Origin: Botrimarina mediterranea
GTDB lineage: Bacteria > Planctomycetota > Planctomycetia > Pirellulales > Lacipirellulaceae
Assembly (NCBI RefSeq): GCF_007753265.1
Contig: NZ_CP036349.1
Span: 4,559,363 to 4,623,362 of the forward strand
DNA length: 64,000 bases
Reading direction: 5' to 3'
The translations under genes and the position numbers were made by a program. This document shows positions 16,329-24,164 of the stretch, in pieces. Position 1 is the first letter of the stretch. Each line of letters starts with the position of its first letter. The notes under the pieces are model-generated. The model did not search any database. It saw only the letters and a program-made list of their open reading frames with translations, and was not told where the DNA came from.

Positions 16329-16950
16329 AGGGTTCCGTTTTCGTCTGCTGGCTATGCGGCTCGTGGGCTTGCCATCGTGAAGTGAAGCAAGCCGGCGGAG
16401 AAAGACGCAATTGTATCACAACACAGGTTTGTCCCGCGCACGGCAGGATGGGAGCCAAGAAAAAGCAGGCAAGGTCGCGGCGTGTTGATCCTCAACAGCC
16501 CACAGCGAATGCAGGACAGAAGGCGTGCGTGAGGCGCCGAATCTCGTGGGTCCAGATGGCGCTGAATTGCATGACCAGCGATGGGCAATAACTGGTCGTG
16601 CGCGGGGCCCGCGAAACGCCTGGGGTAGCTGCGAATGTCCGCCTGAAAGCGCCCCAAGCACAACACATCCGCCAAAGCGTCGAATGGTCCTTCTGGCGAA
16701 ATAAACTGTGTCTTCAACTGCCCCTCGTTCGCGGCGTGGACCCCGGCCGAACCCCGCCGGAGGACCCTAGTTTGACCGCTGAGCGGCAGTACACGTCCAT
16801 CGGACGGCCCCCACCGTCGCGACCACCCCTCACACGCAAACGAGAGCACTTACTCGCGTGGTCACATGCGGCGGAATGCGCGCGCCGTGCTGAGCGCGGA
16901 CCGCGGGGAACTAAGGGGCGAGAATCCCGTAAACAACGCGGGAATATCGC
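16329..16950. other. Left shoulder of the accessory island, no confident gene
   Basis: A minus-strand open frame of 165 codons (16352-16849) fills much of this stretch but shows no motif, signal peptide or ribosome site. I do not call it. The base composition rises toward the island, and CCCG / CGGG (16926-16943) flanks an AT-rich core just before the first island promoter. No tRNA fragment matching 23711-23758 was noticed here. Confidence 0.4.
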
Positions 16951-16979
16951 TTGCCACATCGGCACTCTGCCGATATAAT
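16951..16979 (+). promoter_or_regulatory. Island promoter P1 with palindromic operator
   Basis: The -35 TTGCCA (16951-16956) and a perfect -10 TATAAT (16974-16979) are separated by exactly 17 bp. The spacer is occupied by the dyad ATCGGCA-CTC-TGCCGAT (16958-16974), whose last base is the first base of the -10. A repressor bound there would block RNA polymerase. The same dyad with a different centre recurs in P2 (18388-18404) and P3 (19778-19794). Predicted transcription starts about 16986, just ahead of the leader hairpin. Confidence 0.85.
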
Positions 16980-16989
16980 AGAAGCACGC

Positions 16990-17007
16990 GGCGCCCATTG
17001 GGGCGCC
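16990..17007 (+). promoter_or_regulatory. Island leader hairpin, copy 1
   Basis: GGCGCCC (16990-16996), loop ATTG, GGGCGCC (17001-17007), followed by GACCT. It would lie within the first bases of the P1 transcript. The same stem is found ahead of five island genes with variable loops (ATTG, ACTA, ATTG, ACAG, ACTG), which argues for a conserved structure acting at RNA level or as a DNA box. Confidence 0.8.
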
Positions 17008-17029
17008 GACCTACTTCGGATTCGGCCAG

Positions 17030-17818
17030 ATGTCTAATTCCCGAGAATGGCTCGGCGCCTACAAGGCGCCCGCATCGGCACTACTCTGCGCTGTTCGTGC
17101 GGCGCTCGTCGCTCACGCAGCAGACGGCGCCCCGGTGACGCTTGAGGCTACCGAGCGTGGCGCCCGCATCGGCGCTCGCGACGTCGCCGAGGCGCCCGAC
17201 GCGTTGGCGTTCGGCGCCGTTGTCCTGCCCTATGCAGCGGCGCAGGCGCTGGCGCTGTGGCTGGCCGGCCGCGGCGCCGACCTGGTCAGCGTCGCGCGCC
17301 TGGCCGGCGCCGTTCAACTCAGCGCCCACGGCGCCGACGCTTGGCTTGTGGTCGCTTGCGACGCCGCGGCCGCGGCCGAGCCCCCCCGCGGCCGCTTGCA
17401 GGCGCTGCAGGCCGAGGCGCGGCGCCTTGGCGTCCGCTGGTCGGACGTCCGCGCGCTGGCGGCCGAGCTTGCCGAGCGCGACGGCGCCGCAGAACTGGAC
17501 GCACTGCGGCGCCGCGTCGCCGAGCTTTTCGGGCGCCAGCGCAGCGCCTGGCGCCGTAACGTCCGCCTAATGGCGCAGCGCCTCGACCGCTCCGACCTAG
17601 ACTCGGCCGCGCTGGCTGGCTGGGACTGTGCGGCCGCGACGCTCCGCGAGGAGTTCCCGCAGTATGCGGGCCTCGATTCGGCCGCGCTCTTCGATCTGGC
17701 CACGTCCGACAACGCCCCCCCGAGCGCCTGCGACTATCTGGCGGAGGCGCTGGGCTGGATTGAGGCGCACGCCGCGCTTGCCGCGGCGGCCGACGATTTG
17801 GACGCCGTTCCGTTCTAA
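17030..17818 (+). CDS. Unknown Ala-rich island protein
   Basis: 262-residue protein, not recognised. It is very rich in Ala, Arg and Leu (GC of 82% counted over 17401-17460) and mostly helical in appearance. Residues about 125-175 (LQALQAEARRLGVRWSDVRALAAELAERD) look like amphipathic helices, and the C-terminus is acidic (AAAADDLDAVPF). There is no signal peptide, membrane helix or catalytic motif. ATG 17030 is 23 bases after the leader hairpin and has only a weak GGA upstream, unlike the other leaders, which carry AGAGG. It opens a three-gene set (with 17848 and 18112) downstream of promoter P1. The reading frame is convincing because of its length and codon bias. Confidence 0.7.
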   Translation: MSNSREWLGAYKAPASALLCAVRAALVAHAADGAPVTLEATERGARIGARDVAEAPDALAFGAVVLPYAAAQALALWLAGRGADLVSVARLAGAVQLSAHGADAWLVVACDAAAAAEPPRGRLQALQAEARRLGVRWSDVRALAAELAERDGAAELDALRRRVAELFGRQRSAWRRNVRLMAQRLDRSDLDSAALAGWDCAAATLREEFPQYAGLDSAALFDLATSDNAPPSACDYLAEALGWIEAHAALAAAADDLDAVPF

Positions 17819-17847
17819 CCCCACCACGAGCACCACGAGCACCCACC

Positions 17848-18063
17848 ATGGCCAACGACAACCAGCCCCGCCACGCACCCCAGCGCGGCGCCTACGAGCC
17901 CCACGCCCACCACGACATGGCCGAGCATGACGCGGCGGCCGCGTTCGTGCTCACGAACCACGAGCCAAAGCGCAAGCAGGCTGCGTTCTGCTCGGCGCCC
18001 GCCACGCAACGCAAGCTACTGGATGGGCTCGATTGCCTGCCCGGCCAACATGATCTGTTTTGA
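17848..18063 (+). CDS. Small island protein ending in a clamp-binding-like motif
   Basis: 71-residue basic protein, 29 bases after the preceding gene and on the same message. The N-terminal half is His/Pro-rich (QRGAYEPHAHHDMAEHDAAAA). The C-terminus is KLLDGLDCLPGQHDLF, whose last five residues fit the QxxLF pattern of DNA-polymerase beta-clamp binding peptides. That pattern is short, so this is only a suggestion that the protein touches the replication machinery. No other motif is visible. Confidence 0.6.
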   Translation: MANDNQPRHAPQRGAYEPHAHHDMAEHDAAAAFVLTNHEPKRKQAAFCSAPATQRKLLDGLDCLPGQHDLF

Positions 18064-18068
18064 TACGC

Positions 18069-18086
18069 GGCGCCCACTAGGGCGCC
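18069..18086 (+). promoter_or_regulatory. Island leader hairpin, copy 2
   Basis: GGCGCCC (18069-18075), loop ACTA, GGGCGCC (18080-18086), then GACCTAC and an AGAGG ribosome site before ATG 18112. Here no promoter precedes it: it sits inside an operon between two genes, so its role cannot be limited to transcription start. Confidence 0.75.
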
Positions 18087-18111
18087 GACCTACAACCCCA
18101 AGAGGTAAGCA

Positions 18112-18360
18112 ATGGCTAAGTCGACACTCTACATGATCGGCGAGCCGCACTGCTGGGTCGGCTCCGTTCACCACCAAACCCGCAAGCTTCTGCGCTGGAC
18201 GGGAGAGCGCAGGAGCGCGGCTCGCTTTACGCGCGAACAGGGCGCCGCGGTGCTCGAGGTGATTCGCGCCGATCTTCGCGCCCACTCGCCCGAGGCGGCC
18301 GCCTGCGCGAAGCGATTGCGTATGTACCCCACGACCGGCGGCCACCCCGCGGAGGTCTGA
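18112..18360 (+). CDS. Small unknown island protein
   Basis: 82-residue protein with no family I recognise. It starts MAKSTLYMIGEPHCWVGSV, has a basic middle (RKLLRWTGERRSAARFTREQ) and ends with TTGGHPAEV. It has no membrane helix or signal. The start is supported by AGAGG 7 bases upstream and by the leader hairpin. It is the third gene behind promoter P1; the next promoter (P2) begins 20 bases after its stop. Confidence 0.65.
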   Translation: MAKSTLYMIGEPHCWVGSVHHQTRKLLRWTGERRSAARFTREQGAAVLEVIRADLRAHSPEAAACAKRLRMYPTTGGHPAEV

Positions 18361-18380
18361 CAACTTCCGCGGAAATTCGC

Positions 18381-18409
18381 TTGCCGTATCGGCACAGTGC
18401 CGATAAAAT
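18381..18409 (+). promoter_or_regulatory. Island promoter P2 with palindromic operator
   Basis: The -35 TTGCCG (18381-18386) and -10 TAAAAT (18404-18409) are 17 bp apart. The perfect dyad ATCGGCAC-A-GTGCCGAT (18388-18404) fills the spacer in the same register as in P1. Bases upstream (CGCTTGCC) are also conserved with P1. Confidence 0.82.
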
Positions 18410-18419
18410 CAAGCGACGC

Positions 18420-18437
18420 GGCGCCCATTGGGGCGCC
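18420..18437 (+). promoter_or_regulatory. Island leader hairpin, copy 3
   Basis: GGCGCCC, loop ATTG, GGGCGCC, then GACC. The leader continues with GGCC-TGAT-GGCC, a smaller hairpin, and an AGAGG ribosome site before ATG 18479. Confidence 0.78.
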
Positions 18438-18478
18438 GACCTTCACGGCCTGATGGCCATAACCCCAAGAGGTTTCCC

Positions 18479-18943
18479 ATGGCTACCGCGCACCGTTCGC
18501 CGGGCACCGCTTCCACCGCAACTTATCAAACGGAGAGTCCGGCTGAGGCGCTAGCCCGCATCCGTTCTGGCGCCAGCCGCAACGACCTGGCCGCAGTGTT
18601 CGCGTTCGCCGACTGTGGCATCGATCCGTTCGACGTCCGGCCACGGCAAAACGTCCTAACGTTCCGGGCGTGGCAAGCGCTTGGGCGCCGCGTCGCCAAG
18701 GGCGCCACCAGCGTCCGCGTCGAGGTCTGGATTCCGACCCGCGGCAAGTCGACTGATGACGATTCGAGTCGCGGCAGCGACGCTTCGATCGGCGGCGCGG
18801 CGGCCCGCGACGGCCTGCGCCTTAAAACGGCTTTCCTGTTCCACGAGTCGCAGACGGTCCCAGCCGACGCACCCGCCGGCGCTCGCCCCTCCGCGTGGAA
18901 CAACCCGCGACTGGTGAAGCCCGGCACACACGACGCTGCCTGA
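18479..18943 (+). CDS. ArdC-like antirestriction/ssDNA-binding domain protein
   Basis: 154-residue protein resembling the N-terminal domain of ArdC, an antirestriction protein of conjugative elements that binds single-stranded DNA and protects incoming DNA. The supporting stretches are FRAWQALGRRVAKGATSVRVEVWIP, which parallels the G-x-VRKGEKG core, and LRLKTAFLFHESQT, which parallels the final FN/FxxxQT strand. The C-terminal metallopeptidase domain of full ArdC is absent. The start at 18479 follows AGAGG and the leader hairpin under promoter P2. The tail after residue 130 is Pro/Ala-rich. The domain call is by eye and moderate. Confidence 0.6.
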   Translation: MATAHRSPGTASTATYQTESPAEALARIRSGASRNDLAAVFAFADCGIDPFDVRPRQNVLTFRAWQALGRRVAKGATSVRVEVWIPTRGKSTDDDSSRGSDASIGGAAARDGLRLKTAFLFHESQTVPADAPAGARPSAWNNPRLVKPGTHDAA

Positions 18944-18958
18944 CGCGTTCCTGGTCGC

Positions 18959-18978
18959 CGCTTGCGACGCGGCTTCCC
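18959..18978 (+). repeat. 20-bp island repeat, copy 1
   Basis: CGCTTGCGACGCGGCTTCCC is identical to 22154-22173. Both copies lie just after the stop of an island gene (16 and 13 bases downstream), so it may be a 3'-end or processing element. A small hairpin GGGATG-TCG-CATCCC follows at 19005-19019. Confidence 0.7.
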
Positions 18979-19042
18979 CACACCCCCGGCCGTTGCGTTA
19001 TCGCGGGATGTCGCATCCCCGCCGGCCGCTTCGCTGCTTTCC

Positions 19043-19060
19043 GGCGCCCACAGGGGCGCC
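19043..19060 (+). promoter_or_regulatory. Island leader hairpin, copy 4
   Basis: GGCGCCC (19043-19049), loop ACAG, GGGCGCC (19054-19060), then GACCTTCATCCCGAGG and ATG 19087. No operator precedes this copy. Confidence 0.75.
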
Positions 19061-19086
19061 GACCTTCATCCCGAGGCCGCCATGCC

Positions 19087-19474
19087 ATGAGCACGAATGC
19101 CCCTGCCGCCCTGTTCGACGTCACCCCCACGCAGACGACGCCGCCCACTGTTTACGAGCGATTTGCTGTTCTGGCCGGGCCGATCGTCAAGCACTACCGC
19201 AAAGACCTTACGAAGCACGACCGCGAGACAGGGACGCACCTTTGGCTGACTCCCTACCGCCGACGACCTGCCCGCCCCGGGCGAGCGCGTGCCGTATCTG
19301 TTCGGCGACGTAGACCGCCGCGGATGGCTGGAAAACTTCGTCATCGACGTCGAGGCCGCGGCGGGCGATTCCTGCCGCCTGTGCCTGTGGTTCGACGGGC
19401 ACCGCTTCCGCATCGTCGAGCCGGCCCGCACCGTGCAGATCGCCACCGAGTCCGCCAAACGGCTCCGCCCCTAG
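19087..19474 (+). pseudogene. Island gene interrupted by a one-base frameshift
   Basis: The frame from ATG 19087 codes sensibly (YERFAVLAGPIVKHYRKDLT, HDRETGTHLWLTPY) up to about 19275. It then turns into Arg-rich nonsense. The +1 frame takes over with ADDLPAPGERVPYLFGDV and continues to FRIVEPARTVQ and a stop at 19474. One extra C near 19276 would explain it. The rebuilt product is about 128 residues, of no family I recognise, with a WFDGHRFRIVEP beta-hairpin. It could be a decayed gene, a sequencing error or, less likely, a programmed shift. Its end overlaps the end of the minus-strand HTH gene by 4 bases. The start has GAGG upstream and the leader hairpin. Confidence 0.7.
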
Positions 19475-19686
19475 CAACTGTGCGGGCGATGCGTCTCCTC
19501 CTTCCATCGCTTCACTTCGCGCAGATCGACCAGCGGCAGCCCGTCGCCCAGCGTATAGGACGCGACGTAACCCAGCCCAACGGCCGAATGGAGCGTCTGC
19601 CGGCTTACCTGGACGGCCGCCGCCGCCGGGGTAATCCGGTAAAGGTGCTTGAGAGGGGGGACGGCGGCGGGTTTGCTCTTGGCCAT
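19471..19686 (-). CDS. Excisionase/MerR-type small HTH protein
   Basis: 71-residue protein from ATG at 19686 (MAKSKPAAVPPLKHLYRITP). The core YRITPAAAAVQVSRQTLHSAVGL followed by LPLVDLREVKRW is a typical helix-turn-helix of the excisionase / MerR-like class, with a short wing. It is the only minus-strand gene of the island and points toward the frameshifted gene. Its upstream region faces operator P3. It is thus a candidate for the regulator that reads the island dyads, or for the recombination directionality factor of the element; sequence alone cannot decide. Longer in-frame starts upstream would cross the P3 operator and are less likely. Confidence 0.7.
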   Translation of the reverse strand: MAKSKPAAVPPLKHLYRITPAAAAVQVSRQTLHSAVGLGYVASYTLGDGLPLVDLREVKRWKEETHRPHSC

Positions 19687-19768
19687 TACTCGCAGAGTAC
19701 CGTCAGCAAGACTTTCAGACAATCGCCGATACGACGCAACCCGTCCACACACGCTCATCTCGCAACGC

Positions 19769-19798
19769 TTGCTTAACTTCGGCACTGTGCCGAATGAT
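19769..19798 (+). promoter_or_regulatory. Island operator P3 with weaker promoter
   Basis: The dyad TTCGGCAC-T-GTGCCGAA (19778-19794) is perfect, with the outermost pair changed from A/T to T/A relative to P1 and P2, a compensating change that supports selection on the palindrome. TTGCTT (19769-19774) may be the -35; a -10 in register (AATGAT) is poor. It lies between the divergent HTH gene and the DUF3560 gene, so it could control either. Confidence 0.65.
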
Positions 19799-19807
19799 CC
19801 GCCACAC

Positions 19808-19825
19808 GGCGCCCACTGGGGCGCC
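19808..19825 (+). promoter_or_regulatory. Island leader hairpin, copy 5
   Basis: GGCGCCC (19808-19814), loop ACTG, GGGCGCC (19819-19825), followed by GGCCTTCACTCC. The leader then holds another potential stem (GGCC pairs around 19827-19853) and ACGAGG before the GTG start at 19876. Confidence 0.76.
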
Positions 19826-19875
19826 GGCCTTCACTCCGGCCGTAACTCTGGCCGACAACCCCACGAGGTTTCCCC

Positions 19876-21498
19876 GTGTACCTGATCGACGAAGACCGCG
19901 CCCGCCACGCCGCCGCGCTCGCCGATAGCGGCCCCATCGACGGCGCCAGCGCCACCTACTGCCCCGAAGACGACAAGCTCCGCCTCTACGTCGGCTACGT
20001 GAGCCGGCCCGTGTACGACGCCCTACGGGCCCACGGCTGGACCGCCACGCCCAAGCAAGACTGCGACTTCGCCGCGGTCTGGACCGTCTACCGCGAAGAC
20101 ATGGCGCTCGCTCTCTTGCCCGAGGGGCTCGACATCGAAGACGAAGACACGCCCCCCGAGGAGCGGGCCGCCGACCGCGCCGAGCGCTTCGGCGGCTACC
20201 GCGACAAGCGGCTCGGCGAGGCGATCGGCCACGCCGACGCCTTCGACGAGGGGCCGCAGGCGATCGGCTGTCAGTCCGCGGCGCGGGCCGAGCGGATCGC
20301 CCGCCGGCACGACCGCACCCGCGGCCGCGCCGTCACCCAGTGGAGCAAAGCCGAGTACTGGACCCGCCGCACGGCAGGCGTCATCGGCCACGCGCTCTAC
20401 AAGTCATCGGCGCACGTCCGCCGCGGCCGGATCGCCAAGCTAGAGAGCGACCTGCGGAAGATCGAGGCGGGCATCGAGGAGGCGCAGACGCGAATCGACG
20501 CCTGGCGGAAGGTCGCCGGCTGGGCTCTGGTCGAGGGCACGGCCGAGCAGGCCCACCGCTGGGCCGTCAAGCTGGCCAACATCGGCTACGGCTCGCGCGA
20601 CTACACCCACCCCCGCACGGGCGAGACGGGCCCGCTGTGGCGGCTCTTGGATAGCGAGCTGACGCCCGACCCGCTGACCGCCGCCGAGGCGGCCGCGCTG
20701 TGGCTGGAGAACCGGGCCGATCCCGCGGCGGGCGGCTACGGGCGCCACCGCGACCACCTCCGCAACCGCATCGCCTACGAACGGCAGATGCTCGCCGCTC
20801 AAGGCGGCAGCGCCAAGGAGGTCGAGATCGAGCCGGGCGGCTACATCCACGCCGGCCGCTCTTGGTATCAGGGCCGGGCGATCCACCACGACGCCGACGG
20901 GCGGATTCGCGTTGAGAAGGTCAACAAGGGGCGCGACGGCCTCGTGTCGTCGGTGGGCGTGCTCTGCGTCGATCGCTGGGGCAACGGCGACGCTAAGCAG
21001 TTCGTGTCGGTGATGAAGGTCGAGCGGCTGGGGGAAGACGCCTACCGGCCGCCGACCGACGAGGAGCGCGCCCGCTTCGCCGCGGAGAAGAAGCGCAAGC
21101 CCAAGGCGCCGCCGCTCATCAACCCCACCGACGAAGACGCCCAGCGCCTGCAAGACTTGGCGAACGCGGCGGCGGCCCTGGCCAAATACCCCGGCAAGCC
21201 CGCCGAGGTCAAGCGGATGACGCAGGCCGAATACTCCCGTTTTAGCGGTGAGGATCGCCCTTACAACGTGTGGTCCGTCACCACCGCGGCGCCGCTGAGC
21301 TGGCGCAACTGGACGAAGAACGGGGCGCAGGTGCTGGCCCGCGTCCGCGCCGCTCAGGGCGCCATCTGCACGAGCAACGCCCCGGCCGTGATCGTGCTCA
21401 CCGACAAGCCGCAGAAGCCGCTACCGGCCGCCGTGTTCGAGCGGGCCGCCCAACCCCCAACTGTCAAGCAATCCTTGACCGCTCAGGAGGTCGCCTAG
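19876..21498 (+). CDS. DUF3560-domain island protein
   Basis: 540-residue protein of a family found mainly on plasmids and integrative elements; its biochemical role is unknown. Residues about 90-215 are a clear DUF3560 domain (RAERFGGYRDKRLGEAI, then KAEYWTRRTAGVIGHALYK and RIAKLESDLRKIEAGIEEAQ as a coiled coil). The N-terminal 90 residues contain a small domain with a YxRPVYDALRAHGW motif, and the C-terminal half has beta-rich stretches (GYIHAGRSWYQGRAI). The start is GTG 19876, 8 bases after ACGAGG. The stop is one base from the start of the methyltransferase gene, so they are co-translated. Expression is probably under operator P3. Confidence 0.85.
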   Translation: MYLIDEDRARHAAALADSGPIDGASATYCPEDDKLRLYVGYVSRPVYDALRAHGWTATPKQDCDFAAVWTVYREDMALALLPEGLDIEDEDTPPEERAADRAERFGGYRDKRLGEAIGHADAFDEGPQAIGCQSAARAERIARRHDRTRGRAVTQWSKAEYWTRRTAGVIGHALYKSSAHVRRGRIAKLESDLRKIEAGIEEAQTRIDAWRKVAGWALVEGTAEQAHRWAVKLANIGYGSRDYTHPRTGETGPLWRLLDSELTPDPLTAAEAAALWLENRADPAAGGYGRHRDHLRNRIAYERQMLAAQGGSAKEVEIEPGGYIHAGRSWYQGRAIHHDADGRIRVEKVNKGRDGLVSSVGVLCVDRWGNGDAKQFVSVMKVERLGEDAYRPPTDEERARFAAEKKRKPKAPPLINPTDEDAQRLQDLANAAAALAKYPGKPAEVKRMTQAEYSRFSGEDRPYNVWSVTTAAPLSWRNWTKNGAQVLARVRAAQGAICTSNAPAVIVLTDKPQKPLPAAVFERAAQPPTVKQSLTAQEVA

Positions 21499-21499
21499 C

Positions 21500-22141
21500 A
21501 TGACGCCGCAAAATCCCACCAACCCAGCCCACCGGCGCCTCCTCGCCCTGCGGGCCGAGAACGAGGCCGCCCGCGAAGACATGGCCGCCCAGGCCCCCCG
21601 GTTCCGCCATCTGGCGGAGCCGGGGGCGGCGCCCCGCGTGATCGTCTCGGACAACCTGTTCCAGACGCCGCCGGTGATCGCCGAGCTGATGGTCAAGCTA
21701 CTGGCCCCGCGGGCCGGCTGGCGGGTGCTAGAGCCCTCCGTGGGGCTCGGCCGGCTGGTGACGGCGCTGCACGGCTACAACGTCGAGGTGACCGCCGTCG
21801 ATGTTTCGCAAGAGTGCTGCGATGAGGTTTTGCACCTGCGCTGGATTCCCGGCCGGCTGACGGTCTGCCGCGAAGACTTCTTGACCGTCCCCGTCACCCG
21901 CTGGCCCGCGTTCGACGCGGTGCTGATGAATCCCCCCTTCCGCCGCGGCGCCGACATCAAGCACACCAGGCACGCCCTGGCGATGCTCAAGCCCGGGGGG
22001 CGGCTGGTGGGCCTCTGCTACGGCGGGACGCGGCAGGAGGCCGCTCTGCGGCCCCTGGCGGCCACCTGGCGGCGTCTCCCCGCGGCGAGCTTCGCCAGCG
22101 AGGGCACGCGGGCCGATGTTGTGCTTTTTTCGATCGGCTGA
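21500..22141 (+). CDS. N6-adenine-type SAM-dependent methyltransferase
   Basis: 213-residue methyltransferase. Motif I is VLEPSVGLGRLVTAL (about 75-89), followed by an acidic residue in VTAVDVS. The catalytic motif is NPPF at residues 144-147, typical of N6-adenine DNA (or related amino-group) methylation. KPGGRLVGLCYGG is the conserved strand after motif IV. No target-recognition domain and no partner endonuclease are nearby, so it looks like an orphan enzyme that may protect the element from host restriction, fitting the ArdC-like gene in the same island. It begins one base after the DUF3560 stop, with GGAGG upstream. Confidence 0.85.
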   Translation: MTPQNPTNPAHRRLLALRAENEAAREDMAAQAPRFRHLAEPGAAPRVIVSDNLFQTPPVIAELMVKLLAPRAGWRVLEPSVGLGRLVTALHGYNVEVTAVDVSQECCDEVLHLRWIPGRLTVCREDFLTVPVTRWPAFDAVLMNPPFRRGADIKHTRHALAMLKPGGRLVGLCYGGTRQEAALRPLAATWRRLPAASFASEGTRADVVLFSIG

Positions 22142-22153
22142 GCCTCTTGGGAA

Positions 22154-22173
22154 CGCTTGCGACGCGGCTTCCC
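22154..22173 (+). repeat. 20-bp island repeat, copy 2
   Basis: Identical to 18959-18978 and placed 13 bases after the methyltransferase stop. See copy 1. Confidence 0.7.
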
Positions 22174-22283
22174 GGTGACCGGCTCGGGCGATCACGGCCG
22201 AACCGCGGCCCTGCCCCGCCGGCAAATCGGATCGAATCGACTCGCCACCACATTTCCTCTTCTCGTGCCCCCTGCCCACTTTC

Positions 22284-22799
22284 ATGAACTTTTCCGACCC
22301 CAACCTCTGGGCGCTGCTCGCCTGGCTCTTCTGGTGCTACTGCTTCCTGGACTTCAAGGCGCACCGCTACGACCGCATCCCCGACGATCGGCTACGCGTT
22401 GCCCTGGCCGAGCACGAGGCGGCGTTGCGGAAGGAGGCGGCCGGCAAGGGCGACCCGGGCCGCGTCAATCGGGCCAAGCGGGACGTCGTCCGCCGGCAGA
22501 AGGCGGCCAGCGCCAACCGCCGGGCGCACCAGCGGCTCCACCAAGAGGTCGCCGCCGCCAACTGGCCGGTCCTGGGCCGCGTGGCGTGCGCTTTGGTGGC
22601 GTCCTTTCTGTGGTGCCATATACTGGCGTCCGTCTTGGAGTGTGCCCGCCAGACTCTCCCCCGCCCCGTTGCCCCATGCGTATCGACCCGTCCTCCCGTT
22701 TCGGACCCCTCTACGCAAAGTACGGCAAGGGATCGGAAAAGCCCCGCGCTCTGCTCCAGCGAGCGATTCGCGCAGAGGCGCCGGGGGGCGCCGATTTGA
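22284..22799 (+). CDS. Small membrane protein with coiled-coil middle
   Basis: 171-residue protein, not recognised. It starts with a membrane helix (LWALLAWLFWCYCFLDF), continues with a highly charged helical stretch (about 35-90, RVALAEHEAALRKEAAGKG and RAKRDVVRRQKAASANRRA) and has a second hydrophobic helix (GRVACALVASFLWCHILASVL, about 97-117). The last 40 residues are low-complexity and overlap the next gene by 124 bases, so the functional part may end near residue 130. The island leader hairpin is absent here. Such small spanning proteins occur among mobile-element genes, but I cannot assign a role. Confidence 0.55.
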   Translation: MNFSDPNLWALLAWLFWCYCFLDFKAHRYDRIPDDRLRVALAEHEAALRKEAAGKGDPGRVNRAKRDVVRRQKAASANRRAHQRLHQEVAAANWPVLGRVACALVASFLWCHILASVLECARQTLPRPVAPCVSTRPPVSDPSTQSTARDRKSPALCSSERFAQRRRGAPI

Positions 22800-23710: not shown

Positions 23711-23758
23711 GCGGTTTTCACACGGCAGAGGTCACAGATTCGAGTTCTGTATCGCCCA
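23711..23758 (+). pseudogene. 3' fragment of a tRNA-Val(CAC) gene, probable att site
   Basis: An intact T-arm (stem ACAGA / TCTGT around TTCGAGT, 23734-23750) is followed by ATCGCCC and a discriminator A (23751-23758), the 3' strand of a GGGCGAT acceptor stem typical of tRNA-Val. Upstream, TTCACAC (23717-23723) fits an anticodon loop with CAC, but its stem is degenerate. The D-arm and 5' acceptor strand are missing, and CT replaces CCA. A tRNA 3' end beside an integrase remnant is the usual mark of site-specific integration. Confidence 0.72.
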
Positions 23759-23876
23759 CTGCTTTTAACTCCTCTCGGCGTGGCGCCTTACGGCCCAACC
23801 CTCTGATGGCCAGAGCTGCTGTCGGCGAGCCAAGCACCGTTACACCGTAACGGTTGGACTTAGCCCCAGCCCTCCA

Positions 23877-24164
23877 ATGCCCGTCAAAGTCCCGAAGTTC
23901 TGCCACTTCAAGCCCTGCAATCTGGCCTGCGTCTGGATCATCCCAGAGCGGCGCATCTACCTCGGGCAGTGGCGCTCGGCCGAAGCCCAAGAGCGTTACG
24001 TCGAAGTCATGCTTCGTCTCCTGCTTGGCATAGAGGTTACCGAAGCACCGACGCTTGGCGGCGCCAACTCTTTACCGGCGCCAATGGTCACCGTCCGCCA
24101 GTTGGCCGACCGGCTTATTGCCGACGCCCGTGACTACTACGTCCGCGACGGTGTAGCCGTGTAG
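23877..24164 (+). pseudogene. N-terminal remnant of a tyrosine-type integrase
   Basis: 95-codon frame starting MPVKVPKFCHFKPCNLACVW, then RRIYLGQWRSAEAQERYVEVM and VTVRQLADRLIADARDYYVR. This has the layout of the arm-binding N-terminus of phage-type integrases common in planctomycetes (MPKxPKYxxHKxxGxAxVxxxGRxxYLGxWxSxxSxxxYxRL then VxELxxxYxxFxxxYYVKDG). It stops at 24164, and neither the core-binding domain nor the catalytic Arg..His-x-x-Arg..Tyr domain is visible downstream in any frame. It lies 118 bases after the tRNA fragment. It is likely a dead copy of the enzyme that brought in the island or a neighbouring element. Confidence 0.6.

Follow-up and report, generated by a model that had tools for sequence, protein, structure and literature searches.

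A repeated promoter dyad and leader hairpin mark a probable establishment regulon in a tRNA-Val island of Botrimarina mediterranea

In a 64,000-nucleotide stretch of the Botrimarina mediterranea chromosome (contig NZ_CP036349.1, positions 4,559,363 to 4,623,362; hereafter the window, whose numbering is used throughout), five genes at one end of an integrated mobile island follow leaders carrying the same GC-rich hairpin, and three of these leaders are preceded by a palindromic dyad. These genes probably constitute an establishment regulon of the island, repressed while the element is resident and expressed briefly when it reaches a new cell. The proposal of the initial annotation of this DNA, a mobile-element regulon under coordinate control, is retained as the best reading because the repeats are not attributable to chance, are confined to the island, and include two dyads, of three, that lie inside good promoters. 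The elements that carry this reading are as follows.

Leader hairpin 1, 16989..17008, + strand: 8-bp stem, loop ATTG, then ACCTAC
Leader hairpin 2, 18068..18087, + strand: intercistronic, loop ACTA, without visible promoter
Leader hairpin 3, 18419..18438, + strand: loop ATTG, then ACCTTC
Leader hairpin 4, 19042..19061, + strand: loop ACAG, without visible promoter
Leader hairpin 5, 19807..19826, + strand: loop ACTG, then GCCTTC
Dyad 1, 16958..16974: putative operator ATCGGCACTCTGCCGAT, in the spacer of promoter 1
Dyad 2, 18388..18404: putative operator ATCGGCACAGTGCCGAT, in the spacer of promoter 2
Dyad 3, 19778..19794: putative operator TTCGGCACTGTGCCGAA, outer pair altered on both sides
Promoter 1, 16951..16979, + strand: TTGCCA-17-TATAAT, 11 of 12 consensus positions, from the promoter scan
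Promoter 2, 18381..18409, + strand: TTGCCG-17-TAAAAT, 9 of 12 consensus positions, from the promoter scan
Start-associated box of leader 2, 18094..18106, + strand: AACCCCAAGAGGT
Start-associated box of leader 3, 18461..18473, + strand
Start-associated box of leader 5, 19857..19869, + strand: AACCCCACGAGGT

The hairpin, GGCGCCC-N4-GGGCGCC, is exact at 16990, 18069, 18420, 19043 and 19808 with loops ATTG, ACTA, ATTG, ACAG and ACTG, and the annotated positions and loops all proved correct on re-reading. An 8-bp stem is possible in all five copies, one outer C-G pair beyond the stem first annotated; in leader 5 the minimum-energy fold has 7 bp and the centroid 8 bp. The stem sequence is identical in all copies, and the loops and spacers differ between them. 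From the end of the hairpin to the start codon there are 22, 25, 41, 21 or 26 (two starts being possible) and 50 bases in leaders 1 to 5, a recounted range of 21-50 bases that is roughly the 22-51 reported earlier. In the window, 11 matches were found with up to two mismatches against 3.04 expected, and none of 100 shuffles reached 11. With one mismatch permitted, the genome holds 43 matching places, compared with 22 for the reversed pattern.

Scattering of the dyad and hairpin over the host genome had been named as the outcome contrary to a regulon, and the counts show the opposite distribution. Five of the six exact hairpins in the whole genome (5,871,207 bp) fall in this 3-kb stretch, the sixth (1,329,610) lying within a 476-aa open reading frame (ORF), and three of the four copies of the dyad TCGGCA-N3-TGCCGA are found here, the fourth lying within a 560-aa ORF. 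Dyads 1 and 2 fill the 17-bp spacers of sigma-70-like promoters, each overlapping the -10 element by one base. A promoter scan of 7.5 kb returned three promoter-like sites against 0.6 expected, the third of which (23639) is unrelated. The earlier placement of a dyad between or next to the -35 and -10 elements before three leaders stands for two in good promoters, with the third accompanied only by a weak promoter placed by eye. The hairpins at 18069 and 19043, which precede internal cistrons, have no recognisable promoter or dyad.

The distance from the end of the -10 element to the GGCGCC stem is 10, 10 and about 9 nt in leaders 1, 3 and 5. With the RNA start taken by assumption as 7 nt past the -10, these distances would place the hairpin at about +3 to +4 of the RNA. 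The dyad should act as DNA, since it is upstream of the predicted RNA start, and the hairpin can act as RNA. The dyad arms are perfect in all three copies while the adjacent bases differ, and in dyad 3 the symmetry is kept through a two-sided change. The 72-nt cassettes of leaders 1 and 3 are 83% identical, and therefore duplication has taken place. In addition, a start-associated box, AACCCCAMGAGGT, has four exact copies in the genome, three of them in leaders 2, 3 and 5 and the fourth within an ORF. Pairing between the hairpin and the Shine-Dalgarno (SD) sequence (GACCU with AGGU of the start box) was considered and dropped, as folding shows it in leader 2 only.

In the proposed mechanism, a dimeric island repressor would bind the dyad between the -35 and -10 elements and block RNA polymerase, so that the genes stay silent as long as the island is resident. 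On entry into a cell free of repressor, the promoters would fire until repressor accumulates, and ArdC-like, DUF3560 and methyltransferase proteins made in this brief pulse could guard the incoming DNA. The hairpin, which would stand at the very start of the RNA and recurs ahead of two internal cistrons, may shield the mRNA or the segment downstream from decay; it could also act in translation. The position and symmetry of the dyad support the operator step, and by analogy we infer the repressor, the burst and the role of the hairpin. Genes predicted from their domains to be of the anti-restriction type share these promoter elements, with both ArdcN and DUF3560 matches above the Pfam cut-off. 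The genes of the module and the right end of the island are listed here.

Gene 1, 17030..17818, + strand: 262 aa, function unassigned, GGCGCC-rich
Second cistron, 17848..18063, + strand: 71 aa, without its own hairpin
Gene 2, 18112..18360, + strand: 82 aa, no family match in Pfam, PHROG or NCBIfam
Gene 3, 18479..18943, + strand: 154 aa, like the ArdC N-terminal domain
Gene 4, 19082..19474, + strand: frameshifted, start at 19082 or 19087, second frame 19289-19474
71-aa ORF, 19471..19686, - strand: divergent from dyad 3, candidate repressor only
Gene 5, 19876..21498, + strand: 540 aa, DUF3560 protein (PF12083, E 1.1e-8, above cut-off)
Probable methyltransferase, 21500..22141, + strand: 213 aa, directly 3' of gene 5
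attR, 23717..23760, + strand: 44-bp exact copy of the tRNA-Val 3' end, right end of the island

Five island genes had been described behind the hairpins; the count of five holds, with one of them (19087) frameshifted. Gene 3 matches PF08401 (ArdcN) over residues 56-94 with an E-value of 2.5e-5 and 24.9 bits against a cut-off of 22.6, and its relatives by tblastn, in 38 plasmid records, are plasmid ArdC and DUF3560 proteins. Relatives of gene 5 occur in five of 397 genomes of the class, its own included, and at least 5000 plasmid records hold DUF3560 relatives, 3850 of those 5000 being typed as conjugative. The 213-aa protein matches methyltransferase families of PHROG, the best of the named ones at E 5.2e-20, with Pfam Methyltransf_25 under its cut-off. 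Gene 1 has no match in Pfam, PHROG or NCBIfam and no relative in the plasmid collection, and the two pieces of gene 4, searched separately, have no Pfam match. The divergent 71-aa ORF is present in its own genome only, among 294, and its single-sequence structure model is poor (pLDDT 56). We take it to resemble a small helix-turn-helix protein, a resemblance that no library supports.

The element itself is a 46.5-kb island. The tRNA-Val 3' end is repeated exactly over 44 bp at 23717-23760; the other copy, 46,478 bp away, belongs to the intact tRNA-Val, which a tyrosine integrase follows, and the five genes lie inside the opposite (right) end. One scan, of ten island ORFs, recognised HsdM and HsdS together with two RND pumps and one MerR regulator.

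Several observations weigh against an establishment regulon. The ArdC match of gene 3 spans 39 residues only, and the frameshift in gene 4 may mean that the module is decaying. The candidate repressor has no family match in PHROG or NCBIfam, and its PDB matches have E-values of 0.85 or worse. At dyad 3 the promoter placed by eye (TTGCTT-18-AATGAT, 19769-19798) is weak and absent from the scan output, and the invariant stem gives no covariation evidence for action as RNA. No relaxase or transfer gene was found among the island proteins scanned, a subset of the ORFs. Beyond the island, no repeated leader was seen before the ArdC-like gene of plasmid pSB102, and DUF3560 is absent from the main text of a large survey of leading regions (PMC11541004). 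Finally, no over-represented word was detected in the related loci L056, L065, L066 and L068 (cut-off 8) or L071, L072 and L074 (cut-off 7); these negatives say little, as the window's own cassette would score at most 7.2 and the scans are therefore barely or not sensitive.

The initial annotation knew of no described system with this pairing, a statement that is not sustained, as the CUP elements of the IncN plasmid R46 have the same anatomy and the ardC cassette of p576 a comparable one. According to passages of PMC6289460 and PMC5371602, IncN CUP units place a common operator-promoter and a leader hairpin before anti-restriction genes, with an operator before the repressor gene; passages of PMC6289460 also report that ArdK binds CUP sequences and represses them, and CUP operons appear in parts of PMC5371602 and PMC3490853. 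The likeness lies in the repeated operator-promoter-leader hairpin before anti-restriction and neighbouring genes, controlled by ArdK in pKM101/R46. In R46 itself, a 58-nt CUP leader was found at five places and the operator-promoter repeat at five, four of them in common: ccgC has a leader without a promoter, and ardK an operator without a leader. This parallels the three dyads with hairpin (two with a good promoter) and two hairpins alone in the window. With the -10 placed by eye, the R46 CUP RNA would likewise carry a GC-rich hairpin at its start (+2 to +3). The two systems differ in that the R46 operator lies at the -35 (by eye) whereas the dyad here lies in the spacer, in that the R46 repeats extend up to 300 nt, and in that R46 is a conjugative plasmid. 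The CUP operator/-35 sequence GTACTTGTATTGAC has two window matches at three mismatches against 1.18 expected, none of them in the island, and ArdK had no match at E 0.01 in the B. mediterranea genome in a search run without a positive control.

For the Bacillus plasmid p576, passages of PMC8708921 describe EGeRS2 as a Reg operator, a strong promoter and short inverted repeats in the leader before ardC and other operons, with transient expression on entry, and call ardC a typical establishment gene. The shared features are the operator, the strong promoter and the leader inverted repeats before ardC, whereas the p576 operator is a dual heptamer beside the -35 and Reg is a ribbon-helix-helix repressor. 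The heptamer pair, TTATCCCnnTTATCCC, has two window matches at three mismatches against 1.35 expected and none in the island.

A comparable layout was observed on three plasmids, pAOVO01, pIPM3H3-GES5 and Denitratisoma pI, whose ssb and DUF3560 genes lie behind structured leaders and one and the same promoter palindrome, whereas the palindrome and leader sequences are unrelated to those of the island. The 17-bp palindrome, CTATTGACGGTCAATAG, is identical in three, two and two promoter regions of three DUF3560 plasmid records, two of which are near-copies, and is absent from a fourth (L056). Its sites (L055:768, 2832 and 6034; L054:2657 and 6131; L057:2627 and 6131) precede ssb and DUF3560 genes and, in L055, one further gene. 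The three leaders of Denitratisoma pI carry two different hairpins, one common to two of them and the other in the ssb leader. Literature listings on CUP, STAXI and DUF3560 held no account of these three plasmids' regions, the plasmid names not having been searched. The STAXI RNA motif (RF01728), described in part of PMC2864571, is likewise a structured element near ssb and anti-restriction genes, and differs in consisting of repeated pseudoknots. Rfam gave no match at gathering score in the window and none up to E 5 in 16900-22300, to STAXI or any other family, and no match in the compared plasmid regions (L054-L057), in L038 or in R46.

Within the collections and literature searched, the kind of system is thus already described, and what is new is its sequence and its setting in a chromosomal island. 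The collections searched, which may omit the genome itself or very close ones, yielded no further instance of the combined dyad and hairpin. If the establishment reading is true, control by repressor plus leader would extend beyond the IncN and Bacillus plasmids to a tRNA island on a chromosome, where the sequences are unrelated to theirs. More speculatively, and with doubt outweighing confidence, establishment genes of unrelated elements may repeatedly evolve one two-layer cassette, a promoter dyad and a GC-rich hairpin at the RNA 5' end that recurs before internal cistrons, each with a private sequence. The hairpin here would then be a second element-specific layer, bound by an element protein or needed for the survival of a single-burst mRNA, and acting together with the repressor. 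Were the layout general, operator-promoter-hairpin repeats could serve as a sequence-only finder of establishment and anti-defence gene sets in little-studied bacteria.

The same repeats could instead be start-associated translation elements of phage-like early genes, in an island derived from a prophage, an explanation to which we give a small but real chance. The start box AACCCCAMGAGGT and the inverted repeats before starts resemble in layout the SAS/ESAS elements of Cluster K mycobacteriophages, for which parts of PMC3203893 describe a start-associated 13-bp repeat, GGGATAGGAGCCC, about half of whose copies have upstream inverted repeats. Those inverted repeats have 17-bp arms, and the same parts of that paper describe no promoter dyad. 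DUF3560-methyltransferase pairs do occur on contigs of the viral collection, where four starts on L069 have hairpins ahead of them (by eye) and a start box is repeated on L070; the neighbour of such a pair on L065 is presumably RecT-like. The island's hairpin stem was also found on three viral contigs (L036:6993-7015, L037:3726-3748 and L038:10777-10799), 27-30 nt before an ATG opening an ORF of 202, 202 or 69 aa, two of them before a similar gene and all without the dyad. The start box had 15 matches in viral contigs, two of them directly before an ATG (L039, ORF of 387 aa; L051, ORF of 24 aa), and neither of these two contigs gave such a repeated leader in a repeat search. Against a phage origin, no structural phage gene was found among the island proteins scanned.

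It is less probable still that the module consists of duplicated strong promoters with mRNA-stabilising hairpins and has no dedicated repressor, the dyad being a by-product of duplication. The identity between leaders 1 and 3 and the lack of an identified repressor are as such an account would have them, but the preservation of perfect arms in three dyads amid differing bases, and the two-sided change in dyad 3, argue against it. Single-stranded DNA promoters of the Frpo/ssi type, active on the entering strand, are very improbable: the three upstream regions fold strongly as single strands (z -3.96, -5.39 and -3.04, minus strand only), and fold 2, with its -35 partly in a stem, leaves this reading some room, but the hairpin pairs with itself, the dyad does so too (in the fold 3 centroid as well as in folds 1 and 2), no duplex presenting both -35 and -10 was seen, and promoters 1 and 2 are good double-strand promoters. 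A terminator or attenuator governing read-through is hardly credible despite the GC-rich stem directly past the promoters, as no T-run follows the stem and a terminator scan (six sites in 7.5 kb, 4.7 expected) flags none of the five on the + strand.

Searches for looser relatives of the cassette gave scattered matches. In a collection of 84,980 genomes, the hairpin followed by GNCCTNC occurred in 26 stretches with one match each, none with the dyad within 80 nt upstream. All 26 lie within an ORF of 157 aa or more on one of the two strands, of a kind that may be spurious in GC-rich DNA; 18 have a start codon within 70 nt downstream that opens at least 60 codons, and two (L105 and L107) show, by eye, an SD-like stretch before that start codon. 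The dyad followed by GGCGCC was found in 105 stretches of viral contigs, and among the 80 listed of these 105, three have a second GGCGCC, two being the same sequence. Among 392 genomes of the phylum, GGCGCCCAYTGGGGCGCC matched the genome itself and one other, where the match is read as a terminator-like hairpin past an ORF.

Some further features of the module and its surroundings were recorded. Gene 1 contains 14 GGCGCC words, distributed over all three frames, against 5.2 in synonymous shuffles, and none of 2000 shuffles reached 14. This test covered gene 1 and five other ORFs, gene 4 being left out, and the word was not enriched in those five, where the observed count was attained in 150 to 970 of 2000 shuffles. 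Two exact copies of a 20-nt sequence, CGCTTGCGACGCGGCTTCCC, stand at 18959-18978 and 22154-22173, each shortly past a gene end. Just outside attR, the ORF at 23877-24164 aligns weakly with the beginning of the island integrase (alignment score 42) and has no Pfam match; it is possibly what remains of another island that had used this tRNA-Val site.

Other DUF3560 regions carry repeats of their own. In L069:7900-11050, a viral-collection contig, the hairpins seen by eye are of the form CAGGG..CCCTG and stand before four starts, including those of the DUF3560 and methyltransferase genes, with no promoter seen; as one of them precedes a T-rich stretch, they are possibly terminators. On L070:6703-7990, four ATGs each stand at the end of a repeated box of type GGGAGACCAGAGACAATG, and the fourth is the start of the DUF3560 gene. 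In genome G680, a 5-kb DUF3560 island (L067:7614-12543) contains GCCGCCAG 15 times on one strand and not at all on the other, with 0.74 expected. Across that genome, TGCCGCCAG occurs at 419 places compared with 224 for the reversed pattern and is strand-polar on the chromosome, every match listed for contig C1 between about 0.87 and 2.97 Mb being on the + strand. We take this word to be KOPS- or Chi-like and crowded in the mobile island.

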